Shown here: piece by piece, positions 3,278-63,960 of the stretch
How positions within the stretch are numbered: the stretch's first letter is position 1
Layout of the letters: every line of letters starts with the position of its first letter
Assembly: GCA_944989445.1 (NCBI GenBank)
Contig: CALYLW010000044.1
Location: 1,903,501 to 1,967,500, forward strand
From: Ampullaceana balthica
Lineage: Eukaryota > Mollusca > Gastropoda > Lymnaeidae
DNA: 64,000 nt
Reading direction: 5' to 3'
The notes under the pieces: generated by a model
What the model was told of the DNA's origin: nothing
Database searches by the model: none
The model's input: the letters and a program-made list of their open reading frames with translations, nothing else
Made by a program: the position numbers and the translations under genes

Positions 3278-3410
3278 ATTACTTTGTTCGATTGGTTGGT
3301 GCACAACAGTGTTCATAAATACATAACATAGAACATTATTAAACAAATTTCAGTATGATGAAATACTATCATTGATCTTCTCTACATTCCACCAATAAAA
3401 CTACAATGTA
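3278..3410. other. Short unique spacer between two satellites
   Basis: About 130 bp of AT-rich sequence without repeat structure or coding signal separates the 20-bp array from the roughly 50-bp array. Confidence 0.6.
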
Positions 3411-8613: not shown

Positions 8614-10310
8614 GTCATAGACAACACTAACCTAATGTATCAGCGCTCTGTAACATAGACATAGACATAGACAACACTAACCTAATGTATAAGCGCTCTG
8701 TAACATAGACATAGACAACACTAACCTAATGTATCAGCGCTCTGTAACATAGACATAGACAAAACTAACCTAATTTATCAGCGCTCTGTAACATAGACAT
8801 AGACAAAAATAACCTAATGTATCAGCGCTCTGTAACATAGACATAGACATAGACAACACTAACCAAATGTATCAGCGCTCTGTAACATAGACATAGACAT
8901 AGACATAGACATAGACAACTTTTACCTAATGTATCAGCGCTCTGTAACATAGACATAGACATAGACAACACTAACCTAATGTATCAGCGCTCTGTAACAT
9001 AAAACATAGACATAGACAAAGACATAGACATAGACAACACTAACCTAATGTATCAGCTTTCTGTAACATAGACATAGACATAGACAAAGACATAGACATA
9101 GACAACAATAACCTAATGTATCAGCGCTCTGTAACATAGACATAGACAAAACTAACCTAATTTATCAGCGCTCTGTAACATAGACATAGACAAAAATAAC
9201 CTAATGTATCAGCGCTCTGTAACATAGACATAGACAACACTAACCTAATGTATCAGCGCTCTGTAACATAGACATAGACAAAGACATAGACATAGACAAC
9301 TTTAACCTAATGTATCAGCGCTCTGTAACATAGACATAGACATAGACAACACTAACCTAATGTATCAGCGCTCTGTAACATAAAACATAGACATAGACAA
9401 AGATATAGACATAGACAACACTAACCTAATGTATCAGCGCTCTGTAACATAGACATAGACATAGACAAAGACATAGACATAGACAACACTAACCTAATGT
9501 ATCAGCGCTCTGTAAAATAGACATAGACAAAGACATAGACATAGACACACTAACCTAATGTATCAGCGCTCTGTAACATAGAAATAAACATAGACAACAC
9601 TAACCTAACGAATCAGCGCGATGTAACATAGACATAGACATAGAAAACACTAATCTAATGTATCAGCGATATGTTACATAGACATAGACATAGACAAAGA
9701 CAACACTAACCTAATGTATCAGCGCTATGTAACATAGACATAGAAAAGACAACACTAACCTAATGTATCAGCGCTCTGTAACATAGACATAGACATGGAC
9801 AACACTAACCTAATATATCAGCGCTCTGTAACATAGACATAGACATAGACAACACTAACCTAATGTATCAGCGCTCTGTAACATAGACATAGACATAGAC
9901 AGAGACATAGACATAGACAACACTAACCTAATGTATCAACGCTCTGTAACATAGACATAGACATAGACAACACTAACCTAACGAATCAGCGCTATGTAAC
10001 ATAGACATAGACATAGAAAACACTAATCTAATGTATCAGCGATATGTTACATAGACATAGACATAGACAAAGACAACACTAACCTAATGTATCAGCGCTA
10101 TGTAACATAGACATAGAAAAGACAACACTAACCTAATGTATCAGCGCTCTGTAACATAGACATAGACATGGACAACACTAACCTACTATATCAGCGCTCT
10201 GTAACATAGACATAGACAACACTAACCTAATGTATCAGCGCTCTGTAGCATAGACATAGACAACACAAACCTAATGTATCAGCGCTCTGTAGCATAGACA
10301 TAGACAACAC
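8614..10310. repeat. About 50-bp satellite (right part)
   Basis: This is the continuation of the 3411-7680 array. The order of variants (aagcgctctg near 8690, cataaaacatag near 9000 and 9379, aacgaatcagcgc near 9606 and 9970) follows that seen at 4713-5720, so a block of roughly 1-3 kb was copied. A smaller block (about 9580-9830) is repeated again at about 9950-10200. Confidence 0.93.
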
Positions 10311-10315
10311 TAACC

Positions 10316-10680
10316 TCAACAGCCCCTGTAAGATCCCTACTCATCAGAACCAAACCCTGTAAGATCCCTACTCACCAGAACAAAACCTTGTAAGATCCAT
10401 ACTCACCGCAATGACCCCAGTAAGATTTATACTCACCTCAACAACCCCTGTAAGATCCCTACTTACTTAAACAAACCCCTGTAAGATCCCTACTCACCTA
10501 AACAGACCCCTGTAAGATCCCTACTCACCTAAACAGACCCTGTAAGATCCCTACTCACCTAACCAAACCCTTTAAGATTCCTACTCACTTAAACAAACTC
10601 TGTAAGATTCCTACTCACCTAACCAAACCCTGTCAGATCCCTACTTACCTCAACCAAACCCTGTCAGATCCCTACTCACC
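10316..10680 (-). repeat. 31-bp array derived from exon D end plus its 5' splice site
   Basis: On the minus strand the unit reads GTGAGTAGGGATCTGACAGG followed by GTTTGGTTGAG. This is the last 15-20 bp of exon D joined to the first bases of its intron. About 12 units are present. Eleven retain a GTGAGT or GTAAGT at the place corresponding to the exon D donor, the one at 10680 being the genuine site. Reading through the first extra unit in the exon frame meets TGA within 10 codons. The units furthest from the exon are the most diverged. Confidence 0.9.
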
Positions 10681-10794
10681 TCAACCAAACCCTGTAAGAT
10701 TCTCACTGAGATGACCAGCCCGTAGTGAACCTCCGCAGCCCCAGGCAACAAGAGATTCATACACGCAGATATCCCAATAGCCATGCCGAATAGT
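10680..10794 (-). CDS. VGLUT-like: SLC17/VGLUT-like transporter, exon D (TM3 to start of TM4)
   Basis: Internal exon of 115 bp. The acceptor is a pyrimidine-rich tract ending CTGCAG just upstream of 10794, and the donor after 10680 reads GTGAGT. Its first base completes the arginine codon begun by exon C, and it ends in phase 0. It encodes [20 protein letters not shown] (TM3) and the start of TM4, including VRILQGLVE. In vesicular glutamate transporters this last motif carries an arginine and a glutamate needed for transport (R184 and E191 in rat VGLUT2 numbering, from family knowledge), and both are present. The family continues with GVTYPA after LVE, and an exon boundary here is plausible. 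The next exon would lie left of the window. Confidence 0.93.
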
Positions 10795-14930: not shown

Positions 14931-15159
14931 AGGCCTATACATATACCGTTTAAATAAAATTTGTATATTTTTTACAAACTAAAATAATTGAAAATAAATG
15001 CTATATTAATGACACGTGAACACAAAAAAGCATGATTTAACAATTCTTAAAATGCTTGACCAAGGTAAATAATGCACTAATAACTTAGGTATTCATTTTT
15101 ATATTTATTTTATAGCACATACTTTTGTACGAATTAGAAAAAATAAAAAAGAAGAAATG

Positions 15160-15868: not shown

Positions 15869-17775
15869 TATGTGTATCCCCTGCATCAACAACCAGATAT
15901 ATTTTGTAACTTATTTATCAACAAAATTGCTAAAATTCGTGATGAACCTGACAGAACGGTGTTGCCACCACATGATTTATCTCCTTCTCTTGCTGTGAGG
16001 TCAAGCTTTGACATGTTCCAGCCTGTTTCGGAAAATGAGGTCAAAAGTATTGTTCTAAAATCGAAACCAACGTCCTGTCCTCTTGATCCCATCCCCACTC
16101 CACTATTGGTTGAGTCATTAGACGATTTACTCCCAGCAGTAACTAATATAGTTAATGAAAGTCTAAAATCTGGCACCTTTCCCTCATTATGTAAATCTGC
16201 TATTATAAAACCCTTGCTGAAAAAACAAAGGTTAGACCAAAACAATTTAAACAACTATCGACCTGTGTCTAATATTTCATTTTTGTCGAAAGTCATTGAA
16301 AAACTAGTCTTAAAACAACTTTTTGATTATCTGAATGACCATACTCTTCTAAGACCTAATCAGTCGGCCTACAGACCTTCTCACAGCACAGAGACCACCC
16401 TGTTAAAGGTAACAAATGACCTCCTACTCGCACTGGACAGTGGGAAAATTTTTTTATTGGTCCTCTTAGATCTTAGTGCAGCCTTTGACACTGTCGACCA
16501 TCAAATACTGCTGAAAACCCTGCAAAATTATTTTGGAATTTCTGGCTCAGTTCTGGCTTGGTTTCAATCATACTTATCTAACACATCACAGGTAGTATCA
16601 GTAGATGGCTGTATCTCTCACAAAGCTGACTTGCTTTATGGTGTGCCTCAGGGCTCTATTTTGGGTCCGGTACTGTTTGTACTGTATACAAGGCCACTAT
16701 TTCTACTGCTCGAAAAGCATTCAGTTAAAAGCCAATCATTTGCAGATGATACTCAGCTATATACTCACACTGATCCCTCTAATATGGACTCCGCTGTCCA
16801 ATTGATGCAAGAGTGCATTGGTGAGGTAAAGTCTTGGATGACGTTCAGCAAACTCAAACTGAATGATGACAAGACTGAAGCCCTTCTATTTTGCAACAAT
16901 AAATCACGCAGTACTTTGTCTCTTCCGAAGTCAATTCACGTAGCCAGTTCGGATATTCTGTTCACAACATCGACTAGGAATCTTGGCTACATTATTTCTG
17001 ACAACATGTCTATTAACAACTTCATCAATCACATCTGTCGCTCTGCCTACACTGCCATTCGTCAGATCAGCTCAATCCGTCATTACTTAATAGTTAGTGC
17101 AACAAAAACTCTAGTCTGTGCTCTTGTACTAGCTCGTATGGATTACTGCAATTCTCTTCAGTCAGGTGCGCCAAAACAATGCATTGAAAAACTACAGAAA
17201 GTTCAAAATTCAGCTGCCAGACTGGTGCTCAAGGCAAAAAACATGACCATGTTACTCCACTTCTTCACTCACTTCATTGGCTGCCTATACAAGCCCGTAT
17301 TGATTACAAACTGGCCGTTCTCTGTCACAACGTCTTTTCGGACTCATGCCCATCGTATCTTACTGAACTTTTGTCGGTCTACTCACCCACTCGCCAGCTA
17401 CGATCTTCTGCAGACACACGCGTTCTCTCTGTCCTAAGACACGCACCAAAACATTTGGTGAAAGGTCGTTCTCTTTTTGTGCAGCCAAACAATGGAATTC
17501 TCTACCATTACACATCCGTAGTATTCAAACAACCAAGTCCTTCAAGACTGCACTTAAGACACATCTTTTCAAAATGTATTCTTAAAATTAATGAAACAAC
17601 ATTTCTTGTAAATGATTAACGTAGCTTATGTATAATGTACTGTAATTTTTGTGTTTGGTATGATATGAAAGTTAATTTAATACTTATATGTTATTTCTTT
17701 CATGTAAAGCGCTGTGAGCCCAGTTCCTTAATGGGATACAGCGCTATATAAATAATCAATTTATTATTATTATTA
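15869..17775 (+). mobile_element. 5'-truncated L2/CR1-type LINE inserted in the 45-bp array
   Basis: The satellite is interrupted after attaataaa at about 15868 and resumes with aaaagaagg at about 17776. The 3' end has the stem-rich gcgctgtgagccc / gcgctatataaa segment and an ATT-repeat tail (17757-17775) typical of L2/CR1-group elements. The 5' part (endonuclease) is missing. The insertion point lies in an A-rich stretch, so any target duplication would be too short to prove. Confidence 0.88.
15876..17620 (+). pseudogene. Reverse transcriptase of L2/CR1-type LINE, frameshifted at C-terminus
   Basis: The frame is open from the satellite through 17437. RT motifs are in order: SCPLDPIPTPLL, the NNYRPVSNIS finger motif, LLDLSAAFDTVDH (first catalytic aspartate), YGVPQGSILGPVLF and the catalytic SFADDTQLY box. 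They are followed by RNLGYIISDN and the thumb region ending LQKVQNSAARLVL. After about 17250 the frame is lost. The expected C-terminal continuation is found in another frame at 17371-17619 (YSPTRQLRSSADTRV). The endonuclease domain is absent. This is a dead copy. Confidence 0.87.
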
Positions 17776-17945
17776 AAAGAAGGAATGTTTTTCATGCTAC
17801 CCTAGATGAAACAATTAATAAAAGAAGGAATGTTTTTCATGCTACCCTAGATGAAAAAATTAATAAAAGAAGGAACATTTTTAATGCTACCCTAGATGAA
17901 ACAATTAATAAAAGAAGGAATGTTTTTCATGCTACCCTAAATAAA
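17776..17945. repeat. 45-bp minisatellite, right part
   Basis: About four units of the 15160-15868 array lie beyond the LINE insertion. Confidence 0.92.
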
Positions 17946-24085: not shown

Positions 24086-25696
24086 CTATCTGATGGGTTG
24101 TATTAAGTTATCTTTGTGTTGTATTTCTAAATTAGAATTAATTGATTTATGTATGATTACTACTTTGCTCTTGGTTCTTCTATCCTCTAGTGTTTCAAGG
24201 TTTAATGATTTAACTAATGGTGTTATTCTTGTCAGTTTTGAATATTCTCCAGTAATGAATCTGGCAGCTCTTTTTTGAATTTGTTCTAGTTTATCAATGT
24301 TTTCTTTGGTGGATGGGTCCCATACAGAAGATGCATATTCTAGTACAGGTCTCACCATAGTGAGGTAGCATTTTAGTTTTAAATCTCTATTACATTTGTT
24401 AAAGTTTCTTTTTATAAAGCCTAAAGTTTTGTTAGATTTTTAATAACTTCATTGACATTGGGGATTCCATGATAGTTTCTCATTTATTAAGACTCCTAAG
24501 TATTTTGCATCTTTAGTTTGGGTCCGTTCTTTTCCATGAATGTAATATTTTGAATTTATTTGTTTCTTTTTCTTTGTTACTATTAACAGTTGACACTTTT
24601 CTGGGTGGAAAGACATACTCCAGTTAGTTTCCCATTTTATCAATTCATCTAAGTCTTTTTGTAAAATTTTGCTATCTTGTTCTGATTTAATTGTTCTATA
24701 GATTATACAATCATCAGCAAATAACCTAACTTTTGTACCTGTTGAGATGTTGTTGGGTAAATCATTTATATAAATTAAAAAGTGTAAGGGACCTAGTACA
24801 GTTCCTTGTGGAACTCCTGACTTAACCTTTATTGGTGCAGATTTAGATCCATTAATTATTACAGTTTGCTCCCTGCCCAAAAGGAAGTCTTGGATCCAGT
24901 GATGTAAGGAACCTGAGATTCCATAGTAGTTAAGTTTTTTAAGTAAACTAATGTGGTGAACTTTGTCAAATGCTTTTGAGAAGTCTAGTAATATTGTATC
25001 TATTTGATCATTTTTGTCTAAGACTTTTGATAGTTCATCTATTAAACCTATTAATTGTGTTTCACATGATCTGTTTTTTCTAAAGACGTGTTGATGTGGG
25101 CATAGGGCATTATATTTATCAATGTGGTTAACTATTCTACTATATATTATGTGTTCTAGTAATTTACAGGTGATACTAGTAAGTGATACAGGCCTGTAAT
25201 TACCAGGGTCTGATTTATCCCCTTTCTTAAAGAGTGGAGTTACGTTAGCTAATGTCCAAACCTGGGGCACTTTACCCTGGTTTAGAGAGGCTTGAAAGAG
25301 AACTACAAGGATTGGGGACAGTTCATTGCTTAGTTCTTTTAATAACCTTGCAGGCAAATCATCTGGGCCAGTAGCTTTGTTTATTTTAAAGTTTTTTAGG
25401 ACTGAATGTATACATATCTCATCTACAGTTATGTTACCTATTTCCTCCATTTTATTTAAATTTATTAAAACTTCCTTGTCGCCTGAGGCAGAAAAAGATG
25501 ATGCAAAATATGTCTTAAGGATATTAGCTTTAGTTTCATTATCATTATAGGTTTTATTATTTGAGCCTTTTAGTGTGGTTCCTGAAGGTTCCATTTTTTT
25601 AGATTTGATAAAGGACCATAAGTTTTTATTTTTATCGTTGGTAATTACATTGTTTATATATTCATTTTGGAGGTTTCGACTAAGTTTTTGTGTCAA
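24086..25696 (-). pseudogene. LINE reverse transcriptase (jockey/CR1-like), frameshifted
   Basis: RT motifs are in order: GPDDLPARLLKEL, NYRPVSLTSITCKLLE, LLDFSKAFDKVHH (first aspartate), SGVPQGTVLGPLHFLIYIND and the catalytic RLFADDCIIY box, then KYLGVLINEKLSWNP. One extra t near 24455, compared with the copy at 50760-51377, breaks the frame. The rest (RPVLEYASSVWDPSTKENID) continues in another frame at 24086-24358. Apart from a few such breaks the domain is intact. Confidence 0.88.
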
Positions 25697-26500
25697 GTGT
25701 TTAATCTTTAAGTATTTTTCTGTGTATCCTATATGAATAGGTAGCTTTATATTTCTTAAATAAGTTCTCTTTTTGTTTGCATAGCTTTTTCAATCTAGAA
25801 TTGAACCAGCATTTGTTAATTTTATTTGATGTTAGTTTTGTTGGAACATTCTCATCCATTATAGTTTTTAGATTTGTTTTTATATCTTTCCAAATTTCTT
25901 CTACTGGGCTATTTGTGTTAAATTTACTTAGGAAAGTTTGTTGGAAGTTAGCCGCTGATTGGTGTAGTTTTATTGAATTACATTTATTCCAAAGATAGAT
26001 TATTCTTCTAGGTATCTTATTAATTTTAGTTTTTATTGTATTGGTGACCCTAACAATATCATGGTCGGACAGTCCTGGAATTATTTTATAGTCTAACACT
26101 AGTCCTGGTCTATTTGTTAGGAATAAATCTAGTGTTTTATTTTTCATTGTTGCTGTTTTTACTATCTGTTCTAGGTTTATGTTGTTTATAGTGTCTAAAA
26201 AGTGTTCATTAATTTCTTTGTTAGTTTGATGGTTATCAATTGTATAATTTTTCCAATTTATATCTGGAAGATTAAAGTCCCCCATAATCCATAGAACTGC
26301 ATTTTGATTATTCTCTTTTATGAAAGATTGTTCATGTATTCTAGGGTTTGTATTCGGAGGTCTATATATACTGCCTACAATAAGTGGGGATGAGTTTGGT
26401 GTAATTATTTTACAATAAATAGACTCTATATTAAAATTTGGCTGTGTAGTAATTTATTCAGCTTTGATATTTGATTTAATTGCAAGTAGCACTCCTCCAT
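25697..26500 (-). pseudogene. LINE endonuclease domain fragment
   Basis: The frame shows YRPPN, the MGDFNLPDINW motif of apurinic-type endonucleases, a TRNKTLDLFLTN-like stretch (here KNKTLDLFLTNRP) and the catalytic LSDHDIV histidine motif. The N-terminal third is missing because the element is 5'-truncated, and an in-frame stop follows KSNIKAE. A frame change near 25700 separates it from the RT part. Confidence 0.85.
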
Positions 26501-28367: not shown

Positions 28368-28486
28368 CTTGTTGCGGAGATTCTAGACGCCAGGTAGCCA
28401 CCGGGTATCTGGGTCACAATGTACCCCCAGAAGAACGAGCTGTCAACGACACCAACGGTTTCCGGCGTCCAGTTGAACTCAGGTTC
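28368..28486 (-). CDS. VGLUT-like: SLC17/VGLUT-like transporter, exon C (TM2)
   Basis: Internal exon of 119 bp. The acceptor reads ATCCACCCACAG ending at 28487 and the donor is GTGAGCC at 28367. It starts in phase 0 and ends with two bases (AG) of an arginine codon completed by exon D. It encodes [12 protein letters not shown], the conserved pre-TM2 luminal motif of VGLUTs, then [20 protein letters not shown], a TM2 signature. In vertebrate VGLUTs the position before the small residue and SFFWGY is a histidine (VGLUT2 H128). Here it is aspartate ([10 protein letters not shown]). This suggests a divergent or invertebrate-type member, so the substrate is not certain. Confidence 0.95.
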
Positions 28487-28504
28487 CTGTGGGTGGATAT
28501 GAAT

Positions 28505-29510
28505 GGTTGGACTGTCATTACTAACTTGTTGAAGGAATGGTTTGACTGTCATTACTAACTTATTGAACGAATGGTTTGACTGTCATTACTAACTTGTTGA
28601 AGGAATGGTTGGACTGTCATTACTAACTTGTTGAAGGAATGGTTTGACTGTCATTACTAACTTGTTGAAGGAATGGTTTGACTGTCATTACTAACTTGTT
28701 GAAGGAATGGTTGGACTGTCATTACTAACTTGTTGAAGGAATGGTTGGACTGTCATTACTAACTTGTTGAAGGAATGGTTTGACTGTCATTACTAACTTG
28801 TTGAAGGAATGGTTGGACTGTCATTACTAACTTGTTGAAGGAATGGTTTGACTGTCATTACTAACGTGTTGAAGGAATGGTTGGACTGTCATTACTAACT
28901 TGTTGAAGGAATGGTTTGACTGTCATTACTAACTTGTTGAAGGAATGGTTGGACTGTCATTACTAACTTGTTGAAGGAATGGTTTGACTGTCATTACTAA
29001 CTTGTTGAAGGAATGGTTTGACTGTCATTACTAACTTGTTGAAGGAATGGTTGGACTGTCATTACTAACTTGTTGAAGGAATGGTTGGACTGTCATTACT
29101 AACTTGTTGAAGGAATGGTTTGACTGTCATTACTAACTTGTTGAAGGAATGGTTGGACTGTCATTACTAACTTGTTGAAGGAATGGTTTGACTGTCATTA
29201 CTAACTTGTTGAAGGAATGGTTGGACTGTCATTACTAACTTGTTGAAGGAATGGTTTGACTGTCATTACTAACTTGTTGAAGGAATGGTTGGACTGTCAT
29301 TACTAACTTGTTGAAGGAATGGTTTGACTGTCATTACTAACTTGTTGAAGGAATGGTTTGACTGTCATTACTAACTTATTGAAGGAATGGTTTGACTGTC
29401 ATTACTAACTTGTTGAAGGAATGGTTTGACTGTCATTACTAACTTGTTGAAGGAATGGTTTGACTGTCATTACTAACTTATTGAAGGATTGGTTTGACTG
29501 TCACTGTTAA
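28505..29510. repeat. 34-bp array abutting the exon C acceptor (about 29 units)
   Basis: The unit is gaatggttggactgtcatta followed by ctaacttgttgaag, with g/t alternation in ggttgg/ggtttg. The nearest unit ends about 20 bp from the exon C 3' splice site, so the region where the branch point normally lies is part of the repeat. The array itself does not include the acceptor AG. Confidence 0.94.
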
Positions 29511-44790: not shown

Positions 44791-45295
44791 TATCCGTGTA
44801 TCCATTCCAGTACCCTATTACAATTCATGATGCTGCTAGTGTGGATATAGTCAATATCCATTATTTCAGTGTCTGCTTCTATACTGACCATTACCAAAGA
44901 GGCTAACCAAAATTTTCTTACTTAAATAAAGCAGAATTTTCGAAATCAAAAGCAAGTGTTTTGTTTCAAACGGTTTTAGCCCAGACATATTCAAAAGTCT
45001 CAACAGGGGTCAATCACGACCTTAACCTTGTTACATTTAAGAGCAATGTTACATCTTGTCCTTGACCCCAGAACCTGAACCAAATTTCATTCCAAGACTA
45101 GTACCCTATCATTACCTTGACCTATGCAAATTTTACATTATGTCCTTGACCCCAGGGTTTTGATCAAGTTTCAGTCCAAGACTAGTGCTCTATTATGACC
45201 CTGTTGTTGGTTAATGCACTACTTTGACCAGTTTGATATCAGCTTAAGCCCCGAATTATGCAACATTGCTACATTAAGACATTAAATACCCCACC
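44791..45295. other. Intron B-C, with an imperfect roughly 110-bp direct repeat
   Basis: Two imperfect copies of a segment containing gtccttgaccccag and ccaagactagt lie at about 45055-45110 and 45140-45195. Otherwise unassigned. Confidence 0.5.
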
Positions 45296-45299
45296 CCTT

Positions 45300-45501
45300 C
45301 AATGTCCCACTGACCACATTCCTGGATGGAATCTTTGAGGCTGATTACTCCGTCCAGGTTCCGTGTTAGGGACCCTAACCCTCCCCTCCAATGTCCCACT
45401 GACCACATACCTGGATGGAATCATTGAGGCTAATTACTCCCGTCCAGGTTCCGTGTTAGGGACCCTAACCCTCCCCTCCCATGTCCTACTGACGACATAC
45501 C
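45300..45501 (-). repeat. Duplicated exon B 3' end with 5' splice site (2 extra copies)
   Basis: Downstream of exon B on the minus strand, the last ~50 bp of the exon plus ~40 bp of intron are repeated at about 90-bp spacing. The exon-end equivalents fall at 45501 (genuine), 45411 and 45322. The copy at 45411 keeps CCATCCAG followed by GTATGTGG. The copy at 45322 has lost the GT (CCATCCAG followed by GAATGT). The intronic part contains ggttagggtccctaac on the complement. Confidence 0.9.
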
Positions 45502-45666
45502 TGGATGGAATCATTGAGGCTAATGACTCCGTCCCCGTCCAGGTCCCGTGTGCTATTTTTGGTCATATCAAGAACGGCAACTCCCATGTTGCACCGGATA
45601 CCAAACGATAAAAGAAATCCGAGTGAGCTGAGTAGAGCTATCTGGTACCTCTTGGCCACGTTACAT
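45501..45666 (-). CDS. VGLUT-like: SLC17/VGLUT-like transporter, exon B (TM1 and luminal loop)
   Basis: Internal exon of 166 bp. The acceptor is TTTCTATGTCCACAG ending at 45667 and the donor GTATGTCG at 45500. The first base completes the arginine codon from exon A, and it ends in phase 0. It encodes [19 protein letters not shown] and [12 protein letters not shown], the TM1 signature of vesicular glutamate transporters, including the conserved arginine before CNMG (R88 of rat VGLUT2). The loop that follows has an N-glycosylation sequon (NST) and [12 protein letters not shown], which matches a 12-residue EF-hand calcium loop except for Asp instead of Glu at the last position. Both ends of this exon are embedded in tandem copies of themselves. 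Confidence 0.95.
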
Positions 45667-46802
45667 CTGTGGACATAGAAATAAGACTTGTGTCAGAGTC
45701 AGTACCGAGTGAGCTGAGTAGAGCTATCTGGTACCTCTTGGCCACGTTACATCTGTGGACATAGAAATAAGACTTGTGTCAGAGTCAGTACCGAGTGAGC
45801 TGAGTAGAGCTATCTGGTACCTCTTGGCCACGTTACATCTGTGGACATAGAAATAAGACTTGTGTCAGAGTCAGTACCGAGTGAGCTGAGTAGAGCTATC
45901 TGGTACCTCTTGGCCACGTTACATCTGTGGACATAGAAATAAGACTTGTGTCAGAGTCAGTACCGAGTGAGCTGAGTAGAGCTATCTGGTACCTCTTGGC
46001 CACGTTACATCTGTGGACATAGAAATAAGACTTGTGTCAGAGTCAGTACCGAGTGAGCTGAGTAGAGCTATCTGGTACCTCTTGGCCACGTTACATCTGT
46101 GGACATAGAAATAAGATTTGTGTCAGAGTCAGTACCGAGTGAGCTGAGTAGAGCTATCTGGTACCTCTTGGCCACGTTACATCTGTGGACATAGAAATAA
46201 GACTTGTGTCAGAGTCAGTACCGAGTGAGCTGAGTAGAGCTATCTGGTACCTCTTGGCCACGTTACATCTGTGGACATAGAAATAAGACTTGTGTCAGAG
46301 TCAGTACCGAGTGAGCTGAGTAGAGCTATCTGGTACCTCTTGGCCACGTTACATCTGTGGACATAGAAATAAGACTTGTGTCAGAGTCAGTACCGAGTGA
46401 GCTGAGTAGAGCTATCTGGTACCTCTTGGCCACGTTACATCTGTGGACATAGAAATAAGACTTGTGTCAGAGTCAGTACCGAGTGAGCTGAGTAGAGCTA
46501 TCTGGTACCTCTTGGCCACGTTACATCTGTGGACATAGAAATAAGACTTTGTGTCAGAGTCAGTACCGAGTGAGCTGAGTAGAGCTATCTGGTACCTCTT
46601 GGCCACGTTACATCTGTGGACATAGAAATAAGACTTGTGTCAGAGTCAGTACCGAGTGAGCTGAGTAGAGCTATCTGGTACCTCTTGGCCACGTTACATC
46701 TGTGGACATAGAAATAAGACTTGTGTCAGAGTCAGTACCGAGTGAGCTGAGTAGAGCTATCTGGTACCTCTTGGCCACGTTACATCTGTGGACATAGAAA
46801 TA
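45619..46802 (-). repeat. 86-bp array carrying the exon B 3' splice site (14 acceptors)
   Basis: Each 86-bp unit holds, on the minus strand, 38 bp of intron ending TTTCTATGTCCACAG plus the first 48 bp of exon B. The latter encodes the split Arg, [15 protein letters not shown] and the start of Gly. The acceptor occurs 14 times at 86-bp steps from 45667 to about 46786. The one at 45667 belongs to the intact exon, and one unit has a 1-bp insertion near 46550. Units are almost identical, indicating recent or homogenised expansion. Reading from any distal acceptor through the next unit shifts frame and meets a stop. Confidence 0.96.
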
Positions 46803-47045
46803 AGACTTGTGTCAGAGTCAGTCTCTTAAATAGAAATAAGACTTGTGTCAGAGTCAGTCTCTTAAATAGAAATAAGACTTGTGTCAGAGTCAGTCTCTTA
46901 AATAGAAGTAAGACATGTCTCACAGTCAGTCTCTTAAATAGAAATAAGACTTGTGTCAGAGTCAGTCTCTTAAATAGAAGTAAGACATGTCTCACAGTCA
47001 GTCTCTTAAACAGAAATAAGACTTGTGTCAGAGTTAGTCTCTTAA
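46803..47045. repeat. 36-bp array, extension of the acceptor array
   Basis: The unit is taagacttgtgtcagagtca followed by gtctcttaaatagaaa, about 7 copies. It shares taagacttgtgtcagagtca with the intronic part of the 86-bp unit, so the two arrays arose from overlapping sequence. Confidence 0.93.
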
Positions 47046-47059
47046 CTTGGATCAAACTG

Positions 47060-47235
47060 ATTTTTTTTTCATCATTATGTCAAGGTATTTTTTAACAATA
47101 GGTCAAGGTATTTTTCATCATTAGGTCAAGGTATTTTTTTTCATTAGGTCAAGGTATGTTTTCATCATTATGTCAGGTACTATTTAATCATTAGGTCAAG
47201 GTATGTTTTCATCATTAGGTCAGGGTATTTTTGGC
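47060..47235. repeat. About 26-bp minisatellite (7 units)
   Basis: The unit is close to tcatcattaggtcaaggtat followed by a t run of variable length. Confidence 0.88.
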
Positions 47236-47635
47236 TAAAAATAGTTACGTGCAATTTAATTCAAATAAATATAATCACTTTACATTCCTGAAAACTTCCA
47301 CCAAAGAGTAATGTAAGGAATTTATTAAATAATGAAAAATTTACGTATACACATAATTGGAATCTTTTTGTTAGTTACTTTAAAAGTTTTAAGTTTCTAA
47401 AGTCTTAGCAATTACTGTTAACTTTAATTCAAGACAAAGTGGGAAATTACCTCAAAGGAACAAGTACAAAAAGAATTTGGAAAACTGTGACTAATTAAGT
47501 CGCTAAAAAAAGATTAGAGTTCTTTTATACAAAAACATGTGTTCTTGGCTATAACTTAATCTGACCAGTGGAATAGAGAATGAGCAGCAAATATCTTCTG
47601 GTGAAATTTTGCCTGGCAACCACACACCGTGAAAT
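47236..47635. other. Intron A-B, unique AT-rich sequence
   Basis: About 400 bp with no feature recognised. Confidence 0.4.
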
Positions 47636-47639
47636 GTGC

Positions 47640-47990
47640 ACATCATGTCGCCTCTAATTATCATGATAAAGTGTGCACGTCATCTAGACTTCGTCGCCTC
47701 TAATTATCATGATACTTGTGCACGTCATCTAGACTTTGTCGCATCTTATTATCATGATACTTGTGCACGTCATCTATACTTTGTCGCATCTTATTATCAT
47801 GATACTTGTGCACGTCATCTAGACTTTGTCGCCTCTTATTATCATGATACTTGTGCACGTCATCTAGACTTTGTCGCATCTTATTATCATGATACTTGTG
47901 CACGTCATCTAGACTTTGTCGCCTCTTATTATCATGATACTTGTGCACGTCATCTAGACTTTGTCGCCTCTCATTATCATGATAATAAAG
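47640..47990. repeat. 45-bp minisatellite (about 8 units)
   Basis: The unit is tcgcctcttattatcatgat, then acttgtgcacgtcatctaga, then ctttg. Confidence 0.94.
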
Positions 47991-47999
47991 ACTTAAAGG

Positions 48000-48135
48000 A
48001 CTTTGTTTATTTGTGGTATGGCATAACTTATATAATACTTGTTTACGTATGGTATGGCATAACTTATATAATACTTGTTTACGTATGGTATGGCATAACT
48101 TATATAATACATGTACTTGTATTTGTGGTATCCCA
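48000..48135. repeat. 36-bp array split by a Helitron, left part
   Basis: The unit is gtatggtatggcataactta followed by tataatacttgtttac, about 4 units. The array stops at ...ggtatccca (48135) and resumes at taacttatataatacttg from 54597. This reconstructs an uninterrupted unit when the intervening Helitron is removed. Confidence 0.92.
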
Positions 48136-49763
48136 TCTCTATATATATATATATATATAAATCAAAGTATGTATATATGCATCTCCTTTATAGCTGACTA
48201 AACCATTCATCCGTTCTTTTGAGTACGCTGCTGGGATGGTCAGAGGCAACTTTTATTGCAACATTTTAACACTCATGGGGCGCCGGGGGCCCATAATATG
48301 ATTTTTTCTAATATAGCTATATAAAAATTAGTTTAAGCGTTAGCTATAAGGTAAATTGATGGATCTTAACCAAACATTGTATATAACAACTTGGTAGCCA
48401 ATGGTGAAATAATATATGGCACTAATTTTCTTTATGTCCATTTCTTCGGGACTAGGGCCCAAAATGTATTTTTTCATAAACGTTTAAGATTTTATTCCCC
48501 CTTCAATTATTAAAGATCTTGATAAAGATAGATACAGATATCCACTATGAAATTGATTGAAATAAACAGATGTTTTGAACTTGATATCTTGAACTAATTG
48601 GGCCTTGGGACCCTTAATGTCGTTTTTTGCTAAAATGAGCTATATAAAAATTAGTTTATGCGATAGCTACTGAGTAAATGAATGGATCTTAACCAAACTT
48701 TATATATAAAAACTTGGTAGTTCATATTAAAATAACAAAGGGCACTGCACTTCTAATGTCCAATTGTTCAGAGCCGGGGGCCCCAAATGTCTTTTTTCGT
48801 ATATGTTTGAGATATTATTTCCAATTCTATTTTTAATGATCTTGAGAAATATATACACGATGAAACTGAATTAAAATGAACAGCATTTTGAAATTTACAT
48901 CTTACATCGAATTGGCAGGGGGCCTTAAATGTCTTTTTTGTATACTTCATGATATTATTTCCCACTCAGTTTTTAACGATCTTGAGAAATATATCCACGA
49001 TGAAACTGAATTTAAATGAACAGGTTTTCAAAATGTACATTTTTTACCGAATGGGCCCGTGGGCCCCTTAATGTATTTTTTCCTTATATTAACTATATAA
49101 AAATTAGTTTAAGTGTTAGATAATGAGAAAATAACTGGATTATGACTAAACTCGGTATATAAAAACTTAAGAGCCTATATTAAATTACTATAGAGCATTG
49201 AACTCCTAATGTCCATTTCCTCGTGGATAGGGGCCCTAAAAGTGTTTTTTACTAAGCTTTTAATATTGAATTCCCCATTCAATTGAGACTTTTTGGTACG
49301 CTCCTGGGACGGTCAGTGGCTATTTCTTTTCAAAATTTAAACCTCATGGGGCGCCGGGGGCCCATAATATGATTTTTTCTTTTATCAGCTATATAAAAAT
49401 TAGTTTAAGCGTTTGCTATTCGGTAAATATATGGATATTAACCAAACTTTGTATATAAAATTATGGTAGCCAATATTGAAATACTATAGGGCACTAATTT
49501 CCTAATGTCCATTTCTTGGGGACTTGGGGCCTAAAATGTCTTCTTTCATAAACGTTTAAGATTTTATTCTCAATTCAATTATTAAAGATCTTGATAAAGA
49601 TAGATAAATATATCCACTATGAAATTGATTGAAATAAACAGGTGTTTTGAACTTGACATCTTGCACTAAATGGGCCCTTAAGATCGTTTTGCTTATATGA
49701 GCTATATAAGAATTAGTTTATGCGTTAGCTGTTCGTTCGTCCGTCGATACGACGAGGACCACT

Positions 49764-50598
49764 CTAGTCATCCGAGGGTTGTCTATGCGTGTGCAGATGG
49801 CTGATGAGCCCGATCCTAGCACGGAAGGTTCGGGAACAGAAGGGACAAGGGACGAGTGGGACATCTCCAGGAGGGTTGACAGCATGGGCCTTTCGGGCTT
49901 GCCTCTTCTTTTCTGCGGCGGTGATCCGGTTTGCATAGCATGACCTGGCACCTTCGTGGATGGAAGAGCGGTGCATTGCAGCTCGTTCCCACGTGTCTGG
50001 ATTGATGGCAAACGCTTTCATTGAGACTTTCAGTGTGTCTTTGAAGCGTTTCTTTTGCCCACCGTGGGACCGCTGGCCATACTGGAGCTCACCATAGAAG
50101 ATTCTCTTTGGCAGTCTCTCTTCTGGCATTCGGACAACGTGTCCCGCCCAGCGAAGCTGGGTCTGCATTAGGAGGGTGAAGATGCTGGGGAGACCTGCCT
50201 TCGTCAGTACCACTGTGTCTGGAATTATGTTCTGCCATTTTATGCCGAGAATCTTCCTGAGGCTTGTTGTATGAAAGTGGTTAAGCTTTCTTGCATGGCG
50301 CTGATAAACAGTCCAAGTTTCACAAGCATATAGCAGTGTGGGGAGCACCACTGCCCTGTACACTTTCAGCTTGGTCTGGATGGTAATGCCTCTTCTGTTC
50401 CAGACATTAGGGTACAACCTGCCGAAAGTGGAACTGGCTCTGGCAATTCTGACGTTCACTTCGTCATCGATGGTGACATTTTGAGACAGTGTGCTGCCTA
50501 GGTATGTGAACCGATGCACTGTGTTGAGTCTCTGGCCGTTGACAGTGATGTTGGGTTCTACGTAGGGCCTTCCAGGCGCGGGCTGATGGAGGACCTCA
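49764..50598 (-). pseudogene. C-terminal part of the C2H2-tailed LINE ORF2
   Basis: The open frame 50519-49764 is collinear with 7794-8576: YLGSTLSQNVTIDD, LLYACETWTVYQ, RWAGHVVRMPEERLPKR and the C2H2 finger CPFCSRTFRARIG...SHLHTH. It has lost seven codons after ERAAMHRS compared with the other copy. The upstream part is cut off by the nested LINE at 50602. Confidence 0.87.
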
Positions 50599-50601
50599 GT
50601 C

Positions 50602-51630
50602 TTATCTTATCTTATCTTATCTGTTTACAGACGCTCCTTCTATACAGAAGATTATTGCGTCCTACGCTTATCTATGGTTTGTGTTTAGTCCTGCATTTTT
50701 ATTAGAGATTTAAATGTTGATAAAGTGTTGGTTTTCCTGGATTCTTCAGGCAACCCATTTCACGCCCGAATTCCGGACGGGAAGAAGGAAAACTTGTATG
50801 TGTTTGTTCTTGCATACGGAATAAGAAAGGTGTTTTTATCCTTATGTCTATCTGAGGGTTGTATTAAGTTATCTTTGTGTTGTATTTCTAAATTAGAATT
50901 AATTGCTTTATGTATTATTACTACTTTGCTCTTGGGTCTTCTATCCTCTAGTGTTTCAAGGTTTAATGATTTAACTAATGGTGTTATTCTTGTCAGTTTC
51001 GAATATTCTCCAGTAATGAATCTGGCAGCTCTTTTTTGGATTTGTTCTAGTTTATCAATGTTTTCTTTGGTGGATGGGTCCCATACAGAAGATGCATATT
51101 CTAGTACAGGTCTCACCAAAGTGAGGTAGCATTTTAGTTTTATATCTCTATTACATTTGTTAAAGTTCCTTCTTATAAAGCCTGAGGTTTTGTTTGATTT
51201 TTTAATAACTTCATTGACATGGGGATTCCATGATAGTTTCTCATTTATTAAGACTCCTAAGTATTTTGCATCTTTAGTTTGGGTCAGTTCTTTTCCATGA
51301 ATGTAATATTTTGAATTTATTTGTTTCTTTTTCTTTGTTACTCTTAACAGTTGACACTTTTCTGGGTGGAAAGACATATCCAGTTAGTTTCCCATTTTAT
51401 CAATTCATCTAAGTCTTTTTGTAAAATTTTGCTATCTTGTTCTGATTTAATTGTTCTATAGATTATACAATCATCAGCAAATAACCCAACTTTTGTACCT
51501 GTTGAGATGTTGTTGGGTAAATCATTTATATAAATTAAAAAGAGTAAGGGACCTAGCACAGTTCCTTGTGGAACTCCTGAGTTAACCTTTATTGGTGCAG
51601 ATTTAGATCCATTAATTATTACAGTTTCCC
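50602..51630 (-). mobile_element. Jockey/CR1-like LINE nested inside the LINE
   Basis: About 1.03 kb matches the LINE at 23842-26510 from its 3' AAGAT-repeat tail (50602-50620) to a 5' truncation just beyond acagtttcccaaaaggaaga. The sequence agtctt stands on both sides (about 50596-50601 and about 51633-51638) as a likely target duplication. Joining the flanks restores the host LINE reading. Confidence 0.9.
50760..51559 (-). pseudogene. RT C-terminal fragment of nested LINE
   Basis: Two frames, 51559-51344 (LFADDCIIYRTIKSEQD with the catalytic FADD) and 51377-50760 (CQLLRVTKKKKQI, KYLGVLINEKLSWNPHVNE, RPVLEYASSVWDPS), are separated by a one-base change near 51378. The second frame is longer than in the 24-kb copy because it lacks the extra base near 24455. 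Confidence 0.85.
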
Positions 51631-52756
51631 AAAAGGAAGATAAGTCTTTTTAGTGTTGATTGTCAGACCAAAGTTTGTGCAGGCGCTGGATAACAGGTTT
51701 ACACTGCGTTGCATGTCGGCTTCTGAGGCAGCGTTGAGGGCACAGTCATCACCAAACAGCAGGTCTCTGATGATGTCTGTCATAACCTTGGTTTTTGCCT
51801 GGAGCCTCCGTAGGTTGAACAGTTTGCCATCTGTGCGGTACTTCGGGTTGACACCAACATCCTCGTCTCTGAAGGCATCTGTCAGCATGGCGGAAAACAG
51901 GAGGCTAAACAGTGTTGGTGCCAGGACGCAGCCCTGCTTGACCCCGATTGTAACTGGGAAAGGATAAGAAAACTTCCCGCTGTCCTGGACTCTGGCCTGC
52001 ATGCCCTTATGGAATTGTTACACCAAGACGATTAATTTCCTTGGGCAACCGTACATGGCCATGATCTTCCACAGACCCTCTCTGCCAACAGTGTCAAAAG
52101 CCTTGGTCAAGTCGAAATAGGTGGAAAACAGGTCTAAGTTCTGCTCCTGACATTTCTCTTGTAGCTGCCTGGCAGCGAACACCATGTCGCTGGTTCCTCG
52201 TTCTTTTCGGAATCCATACTGACTTTCAGGCAGGAGTCCTTGGTCAAGGTGGACTGTGAGGCGGTTGAGCAGGATTCTGGCAATTATCTTTCTTGCAATA
52301 GAAACCAGGGATATGCCTCTGTGGTTGTCCCAAGCCGCTCTACTTCCTTTTCGTTTATATAGATGTATGATGGTGGCATCTTTGAAGACCTGCGGGATCG
52401 TCTCTTGTTGCCATATCAAGAGAAACAGCTGGTGGAGCCTTTCAGTCAGGGTTGTTCCCCCCTCCTTGTAGACCTCAGCTGGTATTGCGTCAGAACCAGG
52501 TGCTTTGCCACAGGAGAGAAGATAGATTGCTTTCTGGGTCTCGAGCAAGGTTGGGGGTCATCCAGTGCTTTGTTTGTGGGCACTTGGGGAGATTATTGAT
52601 GGCTTCGTCGTTGATTGTCGAAGGGTGATTTAGGACGACATCGAAACGTTCGACCCTCCTCTCCAAGATCTTCTCTTTGTCTGTGATGAGAGTGTTACCG
52701 TCTGCGCTGAGGAGGGGGTTTGATCCTGATGGCGTGGGGCCATATACGTCTTTCAA
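51619..52756 (-). pseudogene. RT domain of the C2H2-tailed LINE
   Basis: Fragments in order on the minus strand are 52756-52490 (region before RT), 52548-52018 (GKAPGSDAIPAEVYK, WDNHRGISLVSIARKIIARI, YGFRKERGT, and FDLTKAFDTV with the first catalytic aspartate) and 52002-51619 (GVKQGCVLAPTLFSLLF and the catalytic box LLFGDDCALNA). The usual FADD is FGDD here. Frame changes near 52500 and 52010 separate the pieces, so the copy is dead. The reading continues past the nested LINE at 50598. Confidence 0.85.
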
Positions 52757-53215
52757 TTCGACGTAGAAGTTTTTATACTTCTCAGTTAGCTACTGAGTAC
52801 ATGAATGGATCTTAAACAAACTTTGTTATAAAAACTTGGTAGCCAATATTAAAATACAAAAGCACTGCACTTCTAATTTTCAATTGTTCAGGGCCGGGGG
52901 CCCCAAATGTCTTTTTTTCGTACATGTTTGAGATATTATTCCCCATTCTATTGTAACAACCTTGAGAAATATATACATGATGCGACTGAATTAAAATGAA
53001 CAGCATTTTGAAATTTACATCTTACATCGAATTGGTCGGGGGCCAAACATGTCTTTTTTTGTATACTCTTAGATATTATTTCCCACTCAATTTTTAACCA
53101 TCTTGAGAAATATATCCACGATGAAACTGAATTTAAATGAACAGGTTTTCAAAATGTACATCTTTAACCGAATGGGCCGGGGGCCCCTTAATTTATTTTT
53201 TTCTTATATTAGCTA

Positions 53216-54221
53216 CTAGCAAAATACCCGTGCTTCGCTGCGGTAAATTAGTATTTCAGTAAGCATTGAGAACCCGCGTAACACAAATTCAAAACACCAA
53301 TTGATTTCAATCTGGATTATGATGGATATAATACATATATTAACTTCACCGATTTGTCTGCCTGTCTGTCGTAGTCCCGCAGAAAAATAAAAACGAAAAG
53401 TAAAAAAATGACACGCTTCCCATGAATCTATCAAGCTGATAATTTATTTTTTTTTCATCTGCTATCATTGCGGGAGGGCACTCAACAACTTCCAAAAGTT
53501 TCATGCTCCACCTACACGGGAAGTTAGATATTTAATGATGAGTCTGTTTTATATAGCTCATATTAGAAAAAAACTACATGTGGGCCCCCGGCCCCCTATT
53601 GAATGATAATTTTATATTTGTTTTGATTGTTACCATCGCGGGAGGGTACTCAACAACTTTCCAAAGTTTTAAGCTTCTCCCTACACGGGAAGATGAAGAA
53701 TTAGTGTTCATTCAGTTTTATATAGCCCATATACGGAAAAAAACGGTTTTGGGCCCTCGGCCACCCATGAGTGAATTTTTTTAAATTTCATTTTCGCCAA
53801 TTATCGTCATAAGAGTGTACTAAGCAAGTTCCCAAAGTTTTAGCTTCTACCTTTACATGAAGTTGGAGAATTAGTGATGAGTAAGTTTAATTTAAGTTTC
53901 ATGCTTCTTCCTACACAGGAAATAGGAGAATTTGTGTTTTTCTGTTTTTATATAGCTCATATTAGGAAAAAACTACATTTGGGTCCCTGGGCCCCAGTAA
54001 GTGAAAATTTGAATATTTTTGAGCCTGTTACCATCGCGGAAGTGTTTTCAACAACTTCCCAAAATTTCATGCTTCTACCTACTCGGGATATAGGAGAATT
54101 AGTGATTTTCAAATATTTATATAAGCTATAGAAGGAAAAAAAAACGATTTTGGTCCCCCGGCCCCCATGAAGGTGAGTGAGTCAGTCAGTCAGGGCTTTG
54201 CCTTTTATTAGTATAGATAGA
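53216..54221 (-). mobile_element. Inner Helitron, 1,006 bp, in opposite orientation
   Basis: On the minus strand it starts TCTATCTATACTAATAAAAG at 54221 and ends with an imperfect hairpin CCGCAGC-GAA-GCACGG, then GTATTTTG and CTAG at 53216. The flanks rejoin as ttagcta/tataaaaatt, identical in form to other units of the outer element. The insertion therefore went between A and T with no duplication. The interior has about four ~170-bp tandem units with catcgcgg, tatatagctcatat and ggccccc parts. Confidence 0.9.
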
Positions 54222-54596
54222 TATAAAAATTAGGTTAAGTGTTAGATAATGAGAAAATAACTGGATTTTGACTAAACTCGGTATATAAAAACTTAAGAGC
54301 CTATATTAAATTACTATAGGGGAATTACTCACAATGTCCATTTCCTTGGGGCTAGGGGCCCTAAATGTGTTTTTACTAAACTTTTAATATTGTATCTCCC
54401 ATTCAACTTTACACGATATTGAGAAATATACATAGATATATTTATATATTTTTTATGAAATTGATTGAAATGAACAGATTTTCGAACTTCATTTGTCAAA
54501 TTGATGGGCCCGGTGACCCTTAATGTAATTTCTTTTTTTTTATCTATATGTATTCCTTTTTACTGGGATCGGTGCAACGCACGACGGGTCTGCTAG

Positions 54597-54652
54597 TAAC
54601 TTATATAATACTTGTTTATTTGTGGTATTGCATAACTTATATAATACTTGCC
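54597..54652. repeat. 36-bp array, right part
   Basis: One and a half units (taacttatataatacttgtt ... gcataacttatataatactt) lie beyond the Helitron. Confidence 0.88.
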
Positions 54653-55130
54653 TTCTACGAATAGACTTTGTTAACTATGCTGAATTTTTCTTTGACATTC
54701 TCTCTTTTAAATCCATGTTTTTAATCACTTTTAAACAAATGTATGATGAATTATTTCGTAGCTTTCTGTTTCAAACGTAAAATTTAATTGAACATGACAT
54801 TAAACTTTTAAAGTATTGTACTTAAAATCTTAATGAGAGGTTGAAATGTGCTGTTGTTGTCCATGCTATAAGATTTAGCAATATTTCAATTACAAAACGG
54901 GAAATGAGAATTTGTATGCCTATTTAGTTAGCAAACAATCGGGAAAATACTGTAATCAAGAAAATAGATTAATTTACCCAGAGCTTCTTTGAAAGAGACA
55001 TAAATGTTCTACTTCCAACTCTGGGAACTTTGTATGTCATATTTCAGTATATTAGATCCCTTACATACCGAGTTGTAAGTCTATGTTATTCCCATAATTT
55101 AAAATATACCTTTTAATTACTAGGACTCTT
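54653..55130. other. Intron A-B, AT-rich, no clear feature
   Basis: About 480 bp with no gene or repeat recognised. Confidence 0.4.
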
Positions 55131-55134
55131 CAAA

Positions 55135-55390
55135 AACAACACCCGCAAACAAACACAACACACCCTCAAAGACTTACACTTAGACATACACACACTTCAA
55201 TTAACACTCACACACACAATATGCATTATATCACACATATATATTAATTAATACACGACAAACACCTCACTTACACACAAACGAAACACACACAACACAA
55301 ATACATTTCCACTTACACATCATAAAAAGCACTTAAACAGTCACAAGTTCAAAACACACCCAAACACACACACACACACATACATACGCC
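55135..55390. repeat. CA-rich simple-sequence region
   Basis: An interrupted (CA)n/(ACAC)-rich stretch just downstream of exon A, ending in a pure cacacacaca run at about 55367-55380. Confidence 0.85.
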
Positions 55391-55439
55391 CACATTTGGG
55401 TGCACTCCCATACTCTTAGTGATACCCCCCCCCCAATAC

Positions 55440-55589
55440 CTGAGACATGGGCAGCTCTTTGGGATATAGGATTTACTGGGGATGAAGGACTTCTCCGACT
55501 TGGTGGGCAGCTCATCCGCCTCTGCGTAGGCGTCGTCCAACTCGTCATACTTGACAAGGCTTTTCTCGTCTGTTTGTTTGGTCACCAGC
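55440..55589 (-). CDS. VGLUT-like: SLC17/VGLUT-like transporter, exon A (cytoplasmic N-terminal part)
   Basis: Exon of 150 bp. The acceptor is TGTTTGTCCTTCCAG ending at 55590 and the donor GTATTG at 55439. It enters with one base of a split codon and leaves two bases (AG) of the arginine completed by exon B. It encodes a hydrophilic acidic segment (LVTKQTDEKSLVKYDELDDA, YAEADELPTKSEK) followed by KSYIPKSCPCLR. This precedes RCNVAKRY of exon B, just as a short cytoplasmic tail precedes (L)PKRY in VGLUTs. The sequence itself is not diagnostic, so the assignment rests on splice sites, phase and position. The upstream exon with the start codon was not found. Confidence 0.82.
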
Positions 55590-61984: not shown

Positions 61985-63960
61985 CAATTTAATTTTCTTA
62001 AAGAGAACAAAATTCCACTATCAAACTGCCGTGGCCAATCATACGATAATGCGTAAAATATATCTGGACGATACGCTGGATTGCAGGTACGTATTCATGA
62101 ACTCAATGAGTTTGCCATCAATGTCCCCTGTGCAGGACACAGCCCCAATTTGGTGGGAATCAAATCTACAGAGGGTTGTCTACAGTCTATAAAATTCTTT
62201 GACTTTGTTCAGCACCTGTATACTTTTTTTGCTGGTTCTACTCATCGCTGGAATGTATTGACATCATATTTAGAAAAAGATGTTGTGGTCAAGCGTCTGA
62301 CATACGTTGGTCAGCACAATTTTATGCTGTTCATGCTTTGTGTAGTGGTTTCGACATAATAAAACATACACTGGATTCTATATCAGGTGACAATGAACAA
62401 CAAGCGACAACAAGGCGTGAGGTGAAAGGTTTGAGCAACAAAATGAAACACCTTGAAACAATCTTTCTTACAATTCTTTGGAAGAACATTCTAGAAAGGA
62501 TGAATACAACAAGCAAAGTTTTACAATCAAAGGATGTGAACATCCTAGTTGCCACAAATCTTCTTGAGTCGCTGAAAAGCTATCTTCAGGAAACTAGAGA
62601 CAAATTCACTGAAAATGAATTCAAAGCCAGGAGTATGTGTCCATATGCCGATTACTATGATGGGAAAAAACGGGAACAAACCCGAAGTGTGCGTTTTAGT
62701 AGGTATGATAGGTCAGGAGAAGAGTTACTTCTAAATAAGTCCGAAATGTTCAATGTAGAAACTTTCCTCCCTTTTCTGGACACTTAATCGTTGAGCTAAC
62801 AAGACGTGCAGAGGCGTATTCACAAATTGAAAATCTATTTTCTTTTTTGAGTGAATTAAAACCATTACTTCTGATTCACTAGAGAAAAAAGCGAACATCT
62901 TGCCAATACGTACCACAGGGATTTGAGTTATGAAGACCTTTTAAATGAATGTGAGCTTCTCAATCATTACATGGCTCTTGATGAACATTGCAAGACTCTC
63001 CCTGAACATCTCAATCATTACATGGCTCTTGATGAACATTGCAAGACTCTCCCTGCACATCTCAATCATTACATGGCTCTTGATGAACATTGCAAGACTC
63101 TCCCTGAACATCTCAATCATTACATGGCTCTTGATGAACATTGCAAGACTCTCCCTGAACATCTCAATCATTACATGGCTCTTGATGAACATTGCAAGAC
63201 TCTCCCTGCACATCTCAATCATTACATGGCTCTTGGAGAACATTGCAAGACTCTCCCTGCACATCTCAATCATTACATGGCTCTTGATGAACATTGAGAG
63301 ACTCTCCCTGAACATCTCAATCATTACATTGCTCTTGATGAACATTGAGAGACTCTCCCTGCACATCTCAATCATTACATTGCTCTTGATGAACATTGAG
63401 AGACTCTCCCTGAACATCTCAATCATTACATGGCTCTTAATGAACATTGAGAGACTCTCCCTGCACATCTCAATCATTACATGGCTCTTGATGAACATTG
63501 CAAGACTCTCCCTGCACATCTCAATCATTACATGGCTCTTGATGAACATTGCAAGACTCTCCCTGCACATCTCAATCATTACATGGCTCTTGATGAACAT
63601 TGCAAGACTCTCCCTGCACATCTCAATCATTACATGGCTCTTGATGAACATTCCAAGACTCTCCCTGCACATCTCAATCATTACATGGCTCTTGATGAAC
63701 ATTGCAAGACTCTCCCTGCACATCTCAATCATTACATGGCTCTTGATGAACATTGCAAAACTCTCCCTGCACATCTCAATCATTACATGGCTCTTGATGA
63801 ACATTGCACGACTCTCCCTGCACATCTCAATCATTACATGGCTCTTGATGAACATTGCAAGACTCTCCCTGCACTGTACAGAAAAATTTATGTCTGACAA
63901 TTTAAAATCTGTTTTTCCGAACATGAAATTGCACTCAGAGTGTTCATGTGTATGATGGTG
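61985..63960 (+). pseudogene. ZMYM1-like hAT transposase, broken by frameshifts
   Basis: Collinear fragments are FLKENKIPLSNCRGQSYDNA (with the conserved RGQSYDNA; next codon a stop), RIHELNEFAINVPCAGHSPN, STHRWNVLTSYLEKD, a frameshift near 62300, RWSAQFYAVHALCSGFD, TRREVKGLSNKMKHLET, KSYLQETRDKFTENEFKA, FSRYDRSGEELLLNKSEMF, another frameshift after FLPFLDT, then RAEAYSQIENLFSFLSEL, a further shift, and SYEDLLNECELLNHYMALDE. The C-terminal end reappears after the minisatellite (LPALYRKI, then FMCMMVYCTGELSFSRLRL). At least three frame breaks and a stop make it non-functional. The identity rests on family resemblance to ZMYM1-like hAT proteins. Confidence 0.85.
62959..63873 (+). repeat. 51-bp minisatellite grown from hAT coding sequence (about 18 units)
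   Basis: The unit is ctcaatcattacatggctct, then tgatgaacattgcaagactc, then tccctgcacat. It is 17 codons in the transposase frame, LNHYMALDEHCKTLPAH. It begins inside ECELLNHYMAL and ends at LPALYRKI, so one segment of the transposase was tandemly multiplied in phase. Several units near 63290-63450 contain tga in frame. Confidence 0.95.

Follow-up and report, generated by a model that had tools for sequence, protein, structure and literature searches.

How is an exon spliced correctly when its acceptor is preceded by a long row of copies of itself? The question is raised by a 64,000-nucleotide stretch of Ampullaceana balthica DNA (the window), in which an earlier note had described an array of nearly identical 3' splice sites upstream of a transporter exon.

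Gene structure and identity

The window holds the N-terminal part of the gene, in which four exons were placed, all on the minus strand. Exon A (55440..55589, 150 bp) encodes the N-terminal cytosolic part and lies outside any array. It is followed by intron A-B (45667..55439, 9773 bp), exon B (45501..45666, 166 bp, with its acceptor at 45667-45668 and a GTATGT donor from 45500 downwards), exon C (28368..28486, 119 bp) and exon D (10680..10794, 115 bp, ending in ...ILQGLVE). Joined together, the four exons form an open frame of 183 residues. Exon B was placed by its match to VGLUT, by the frame and by related proteins, and the other boundaries agree with relatives as well: the Biomphalaria fragment P0123 corresponds exactly to exon A, P0122 continues beyond the exon A donor, and the A-B junction is common to Elysia P0004 and P0074, both of which continue beyond the end of exon B used here. 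The open frame and these two proteins bear out the end of exon A (55440) and the start of exon B (45666) that had been proposed earlier. Biomphalaria P0023 starts with EPEFNW at the exact start of exon C and joins C to D, P0116 matches both the start and the end of exon C, and the exon D donor is passed without a break in P0011, P0068, P0075, P0078 and P0083. A first coding exon upstream of exon A was sought by tblastn with N-terminal pieces from four relatives, without a convincing match.

The four-exon product has a Pfam match to MFS_1, and against proteins of known structure it scores 161.5-164.2 bits with VGLUT2/3 vs 75.6-77 bits with sialin. Judged by its protein sequence, the gene is a VGLUT (SLC17A6-8), nearer to VGLUT than to sialin or other SLC17 proteins, and the earlier identification as a transporter can be refined accordingly. 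Among the best 120 of 184 matches, the closest named proteins are from Biomphalaria glabrata (95% over 43% of the query) and Elysia crispata (85% over 57%), while a Branchiostoma belcheri protein has 55% identity over 98% of the query; by these identities the gene comes from a heterobranch-type gastropod, and a lancelet origin was rejected. In a gene model of Nucella lapillus (P0054), a 12-residue near-duplicate stands just before the start of exon C, and VLCTAN/YC-LP stretches are repeated right after the end of exon C; by eye, these look like boundary repeats in the VGLUT of another gastropod.

Fourteen acceptors at exon B

The array at the exon B acceptor lies on the minus strand at 45619..46822 (TRF: period 86, 14.0 copies, 99% matches, score 2392). 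It had been given as 45619..46802, of which the start stands and the end is about 20 bp short. Both the TRF call and the alignment of the units support the earlier division of the 86-bp unit into the last 38 bp of intron A-B and the first 48 bp of exon B, so that each unit contains branch-point-like CTGAC motifs, a pyrimidine-rich tract, a CACAG acceptor and 48 coding bases. The count of 14 near-identical acceptors, 13 of them upstream of the genuine one at 45667, was also confirmed: a scan of the whole window for the acceptor 15-mer gave 14 minus-strand occurrences and none on the plus strand. The last intron bases of copies 1-7 are at 46786, 46700, 46614, 46527, 46441, 46355 and 46269, and those of copies 8-14 at 46183, 46097, 46011, 45925, 45839, 45753 and 45667. 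A simple acceptor filter, which gives rough counts because it overlooks real sites (the genuine exon C acceptor had no branch-point match), selected 33 acceptor-like sites in intron A-B, 14 of which are those of the array.

The units are strikingly uniform. The acceptor is intact and identical in all 14, and 11 are identical over their full length; the remaining three have one change each, i.e. a substitution at unit position 1 (46786), an inserted base (46527) and G18A (46097). These changes fall without exception within the 38 intronic bp; the 48 exonic bp are invariant in 14/14 units. Chance is ruled out as the source of such an array, and the best reading is that of a young minisatellite. 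The earlier note knew of no standard feature class for this arrangement, but one exists: the boundary-spanning tandem repeats described in amphioxus as mirages have this very structure (PMC3902484).

Arrays at other boundaries and in the rest of the window

The exon B acceptor is not the only repeated boundary of this gene: two further splice boundaries within arrays had been overlooked in the earlier note, as had the fact that nearly half of the window consists of tandem arrays. One is the 3' end of exon B with its donor, covered by 2.7 copies of a 90-bp unit (45290..45534, minus strand); the donors read GTATGT, GTATGT and a degenerate GAATGT, and 2/3 are thus intact. The other is the exon D donor, which lies in an array of 12.9 copies of a unit of about 30 bp (10309..10700, minus strand). 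GTRAGT donors are intact in 11/13 units, at 10679, 10648, 10618, 10588, 10558, 10528, 10497, 10466, 10436, 10406 and 10375; the same hexamer occurs 28 times on the minus strand of the whole window. The exon D array is older and its units have diverged. In an ungapped comparison anchored on GT its donor columns seemed the best kept. Selection for spare donors was nevertheless rejected as an explanation, since in a gapped alignment the GTRAGT columns are no better preserved than the ATCTTACAG columns of the unit.

Two more arrays repeat parts of an acceptor region without the acceptor itself. Directly upstream of the 86-bp units, 7 copies of a 36-bp unit (46794..47045, minus strand) repeat the branch-point/pyrimidine segment of the exon B acceptor but lack CACAG, and between 46786 and 47235 not one acceptor-like site passes the simple filter. 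The matches in this array amount to 91%, vs 99% in the 86-bp array (TRF), and the 36-bp array is probably the older of the two because it is less uniform. At exon C, 29.5 copies of an intronic 34-bp unit (28501..29503, minus strand) end 14 bp before the acceptor, so that a candidate branch-point region is repeated and the exon C acceptor is not.

Do tandem arrays prefer splice sites in this locus? TRF arrays make up 47.7% of the window in 53 merged blocks, and 20,000 random placements of the four exons within it served for comparison. No enrichment at splice boundaries was found: 3/8 boundaries are in arrays vs 3.81 expected (P>= 0.74), and 4/8 are within 20 bp of an array vs 4.07 expected. 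Since the overlap does not exceed chance under random placement, splice sites are not special targets of array formation. Exonic bases inside arrays number 103/550 vs 263 expected, which is not significant (P<= 0.09); the deficit is a weak hint in the direction expected if selection removes arrays within exons.

A number of other elements were seen in the window. About 9 kb at 4-10306, consisting of 20-bp and ACATAG/44-50-bp arrays, belong to the intron after exon D or lie beyond the gene. A 51-bp array of 18 copies (62203-63897, plus strand) is open in frame and encodes a 17-residue repeat (CKTLPAHLNHYMALDEH-like); the ORF upstream of it (62203-62784) had no Pfam match, and our guess is that the array may be coding and belong to an ORF derived from a transposon. 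Copies of a 45-bp unit at 15147-15867 and 17769-17939 (plus strand) flank a reverse-transcriptase ORF at 15851-17434, an arrangement like that left by the insertion of a retroelement into a minisatellite (15147-17939). Further reverse-transcriptase ORFs (RVT_1) are at 24452-25789 and 52021-52557, both on the minus strand, and parts of the former element recur at about 50.8-51.4 kb. Two similar ORFs (PNVWNRRGITIQTKLKVYRAV...) are found at 7641-8576 (plus strand) and 49764-50606 (minus strand); one of the pair edges large ACATAG-rich arrays, and the ORF at 7641-8576 has only a sub-threshold zinc-finger match. Finally, two tandem pairs of about 140 bp (48776-49082 and 52891-53185) are alike in consensus (GGGGCC...AATGTCTTTTTT...) and probably belong to one repeat family.

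Predicted consequences for splicing

With the proximal acceptor exon B is 166 nt long, and only with this acceptor does the frame stay open; the upstream acceptors give an exon of 252-1285 nt. The earlier note expected upstream choices to cause a frameshift and a stop. A premature stop does follow for 13/13 upstream acceptors (for 12 of them at codon 87 and for the other at codon 116, where codon 1 is the first complete codon of exon A), but 4/13 lengthen the exon by a number of bases divisible by 3 and so cause no net frameshift. As the stop is common to all 13, transcripts made with an upstream acceptor would be non-productive. Splicing from the second exon B donor likewise runs into a stop, and one is also introduced by the downstream copies of the exon D donor. 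The proximal acceptor would accordingly be the productive one, as we infer in agreement with the reading frames. When the distal-acceptor product was searched against about 5.8 billion proteins, there were 3 matches among 6 candidates and none extended into the aberrant tail, which is a weak test for an aberrant mRNA.

Against a proximal choice it may be held that the 3' splice-site sequence is common to 14/14 units, so that a first-come choice could favour distal acceptors. Masking of the upstream acceptors by RNA structure was considered and rejected: folding of a 191-nt segment that contains two units yielded z = 0.66, a weaker structure than that of most shuffled sequences, and the units are in any case near-identical. 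Exon definition favours the proximal acceptor over those that give exons of 252-1285 nt. We consider it likely that the array is a boundary-spanning minisatellite of the mirage type that is tolerated, and that exon definition selects the proximal acceptor. The 86-bp segment over the junction of intron A-B and exon B would have been duplicated in tandem by slippage or unequal exchange, presumably when the 36-bp branch-point/pyrimidine array was already present next door. What now stands there is a row of 14 near-identical, complete 3' splice-site modules, and the module that adjoins the rest of exon B is intact. With a 9.8-kb intron, the exon B donor would then be paired by the spliceosome with whichever acceptor is nearest, which yields the 166-nt exon, while an upstream choice would lead to a premature stop and a non-productive transcript that is probably removed by nonsense-mediated decay. 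The 13 spare acceptors may thus be tolerated passengers in a locus very dense in minisatellites.

Alternative explanations

The row of acceptors might also have an effect of its own. The upstream acceptors and the 36-bp array could capture splicing factors or splicing events, the products would decay and VGLUT output would drop as the array grows. Such a role would fit with the presence of CTGAC, a pyrimidine-rich tract and CACAG in every unit, with the stop that follows every upstream choice, and with the share of the array among the acceptor-like sites of the intron (14/33 by the rough filter). A parallel is provided by a VNTR in human ABCA7, where expression is reportedly lower, and exon 19 skipped more often, the longer the allele (PMC5954066). 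For that reason the harmlessness of the present array is not to be assumed. According to the same source, however, the use of an extra donor inside the ABCA7 repeat stays constant with length, and what changes is the skipping of the next exon. Moreover, normal splicing is described as undisturbed by the mirages that amphioxus has in its Adh3, globin and troponin C genes (PMC3087553, PMC3902484), RT-PCR of a globin mirage together with the Adh3 data suggesting that regular splicing is intact (PMC3087553). Within the window itself, the spare sites show no selective upkeep in the older, diverged exon D array, and arrays are not enriched at boundaries. We therefore regard this role as unlikely. 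It is also conceivable that the number of modules differs between alleles (14 here, plus the tier that has the branch point only) and diverts a length-dependent share of the pre-mRNA into non-productive transcripts, so that the dose of VGLUT would be set by a hypervariable minisatellite, with the arrays at the two donors (exons B and D) and beside the exon C acceptor acting likewise; this proposal appears quite improbable to us, and length-dependent tuning of the VGLUT dose in general is possible but unsupported.

Could the array be an error of assembly or sequencing, the true locus having one or a few units? Arrays in which 11 of 14 units are identical are prone to misassembly, and the draft assembly of one amphioxus globin mirage was reportedly wrong (PMC3087553). 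Yet the 53 merged arrays of the window, many with diverged units, indicate that arrays are real in this genome, the diverged units of the exon B and exon D donor arrays would be hard to produce by misassembly, and the 86-bp array itself contains three distinguishable units; an artefact is thus very unlikely. Lastly, the array might be a stage of intron or exon gain, in which a unit is later recruited as a new exon or as a shifted boundary. Models of this kind have been published for amphioxus globin mirages and human internal tandem repeats (PMC3087553, PMC2812944), and the near-duplicate in Nucella P0054 stands at the position of the exon B end, which would fit a duplicated boundary turned into coding sequence. 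But the Nucella protein is an unverified gene model. In the present array, moreover, good donors are missing from all units and every upstream route runs into a stop, and we see hardly any likelihood for this course. Toleration of the array with proximal choice by exon definition remains our preferred reading.

Comparison with known systems

Tandem repeats that cross an exon-intron boundary were named mirages in amphioxus, where they are reported in Adh3, the globins BflGb6 and BflGb9, PGBD5 and TnC (PMC3087553, PMC3902484), with instability both of length and in somatic cells (PMC3087553). The repeats of the VGLUT gene share the defining structure, as their units span the boundary at the exon B acceptor and at the exon B and D donors and carry AG/GT signals in 14/14 acceptors, 2/3 exon B donors and 11/13 exon D donors. 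The likeness extends to individual genes: the BflGb6 unit likewise joins the 3' end of an intron to the 5' part of exon 2 (PMC3087553), and in BflGb9 a donor-side boundary is repeated (PMC3087553, PMC3902484). The published taxon is a different one, since the amphioxus mirages are reported in cephalochordates, whereas the VGLUT gene is from a gastropod and, among the best 120 of 184 matches, Biomphalaria and Elysia proteins are nearer to it than that of Branchiostoma belcheri. By structural definition the array, as read from its sequence, is a mirage; it is not an amphioxus element. BflGb6 is described with 3 and 6 units of 150-160 bp that are 81-100% identical, in contrast to the 14 units of 86 bp found here, 11 of them identical; the number of units thus exceeds the 3 and 6 given for the amphioxus globin mirages. 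A further contrast with the amphioxus mirages is that three boundaries of one gene are repeated, two of them being the ends of exon B, and that the branch-point segment has an additional array to itself.

Mirage-type arrays, reported from amphioxus, are hereby placed in a gastropod, at three boundaries of one gene; in searches of the open-licence literature, no report of mirages in a mollusc was found. This suggests that mirages arise wherever minisatellite density is high and are not a lancelet peculiarity. The locus offers a natural test in which 14 rival acceptors have an equal 3' splice-site sequence and differ mainly in their distance to the downstream donor, and the acceptor array could separate exon definition from first-come scanning.

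Two human systems are also related. Internal tandem repeats at exon-intron boundaries of segmental duplications can supply alternative splice sites (PMC2812944). They resemble the present arrays in their position, but they represent variation between recent primate paralogues, and a comparable copy number was not seen in the consulted parts of that report (PMC2812944). The ABCA7 intron 18 VNTR has a 25-bp unit that starts with the GT of the exon 18 donor and is described in 12 to about 427 units. Single-unit retention occurs there at a rate that does not change with allele length (PMC5954066). Both ABCA7 and the VGLUT gene have a minisatellite that begins at a splice site and carries a spare site in every unit (PMC5954066). 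The difference is that the ABCA7 repeat is on the donor side and its link between length, splicing and expression is reported as measured, whereas the VGLUT array is on the acceptor side and includes coding sequence in every unit.
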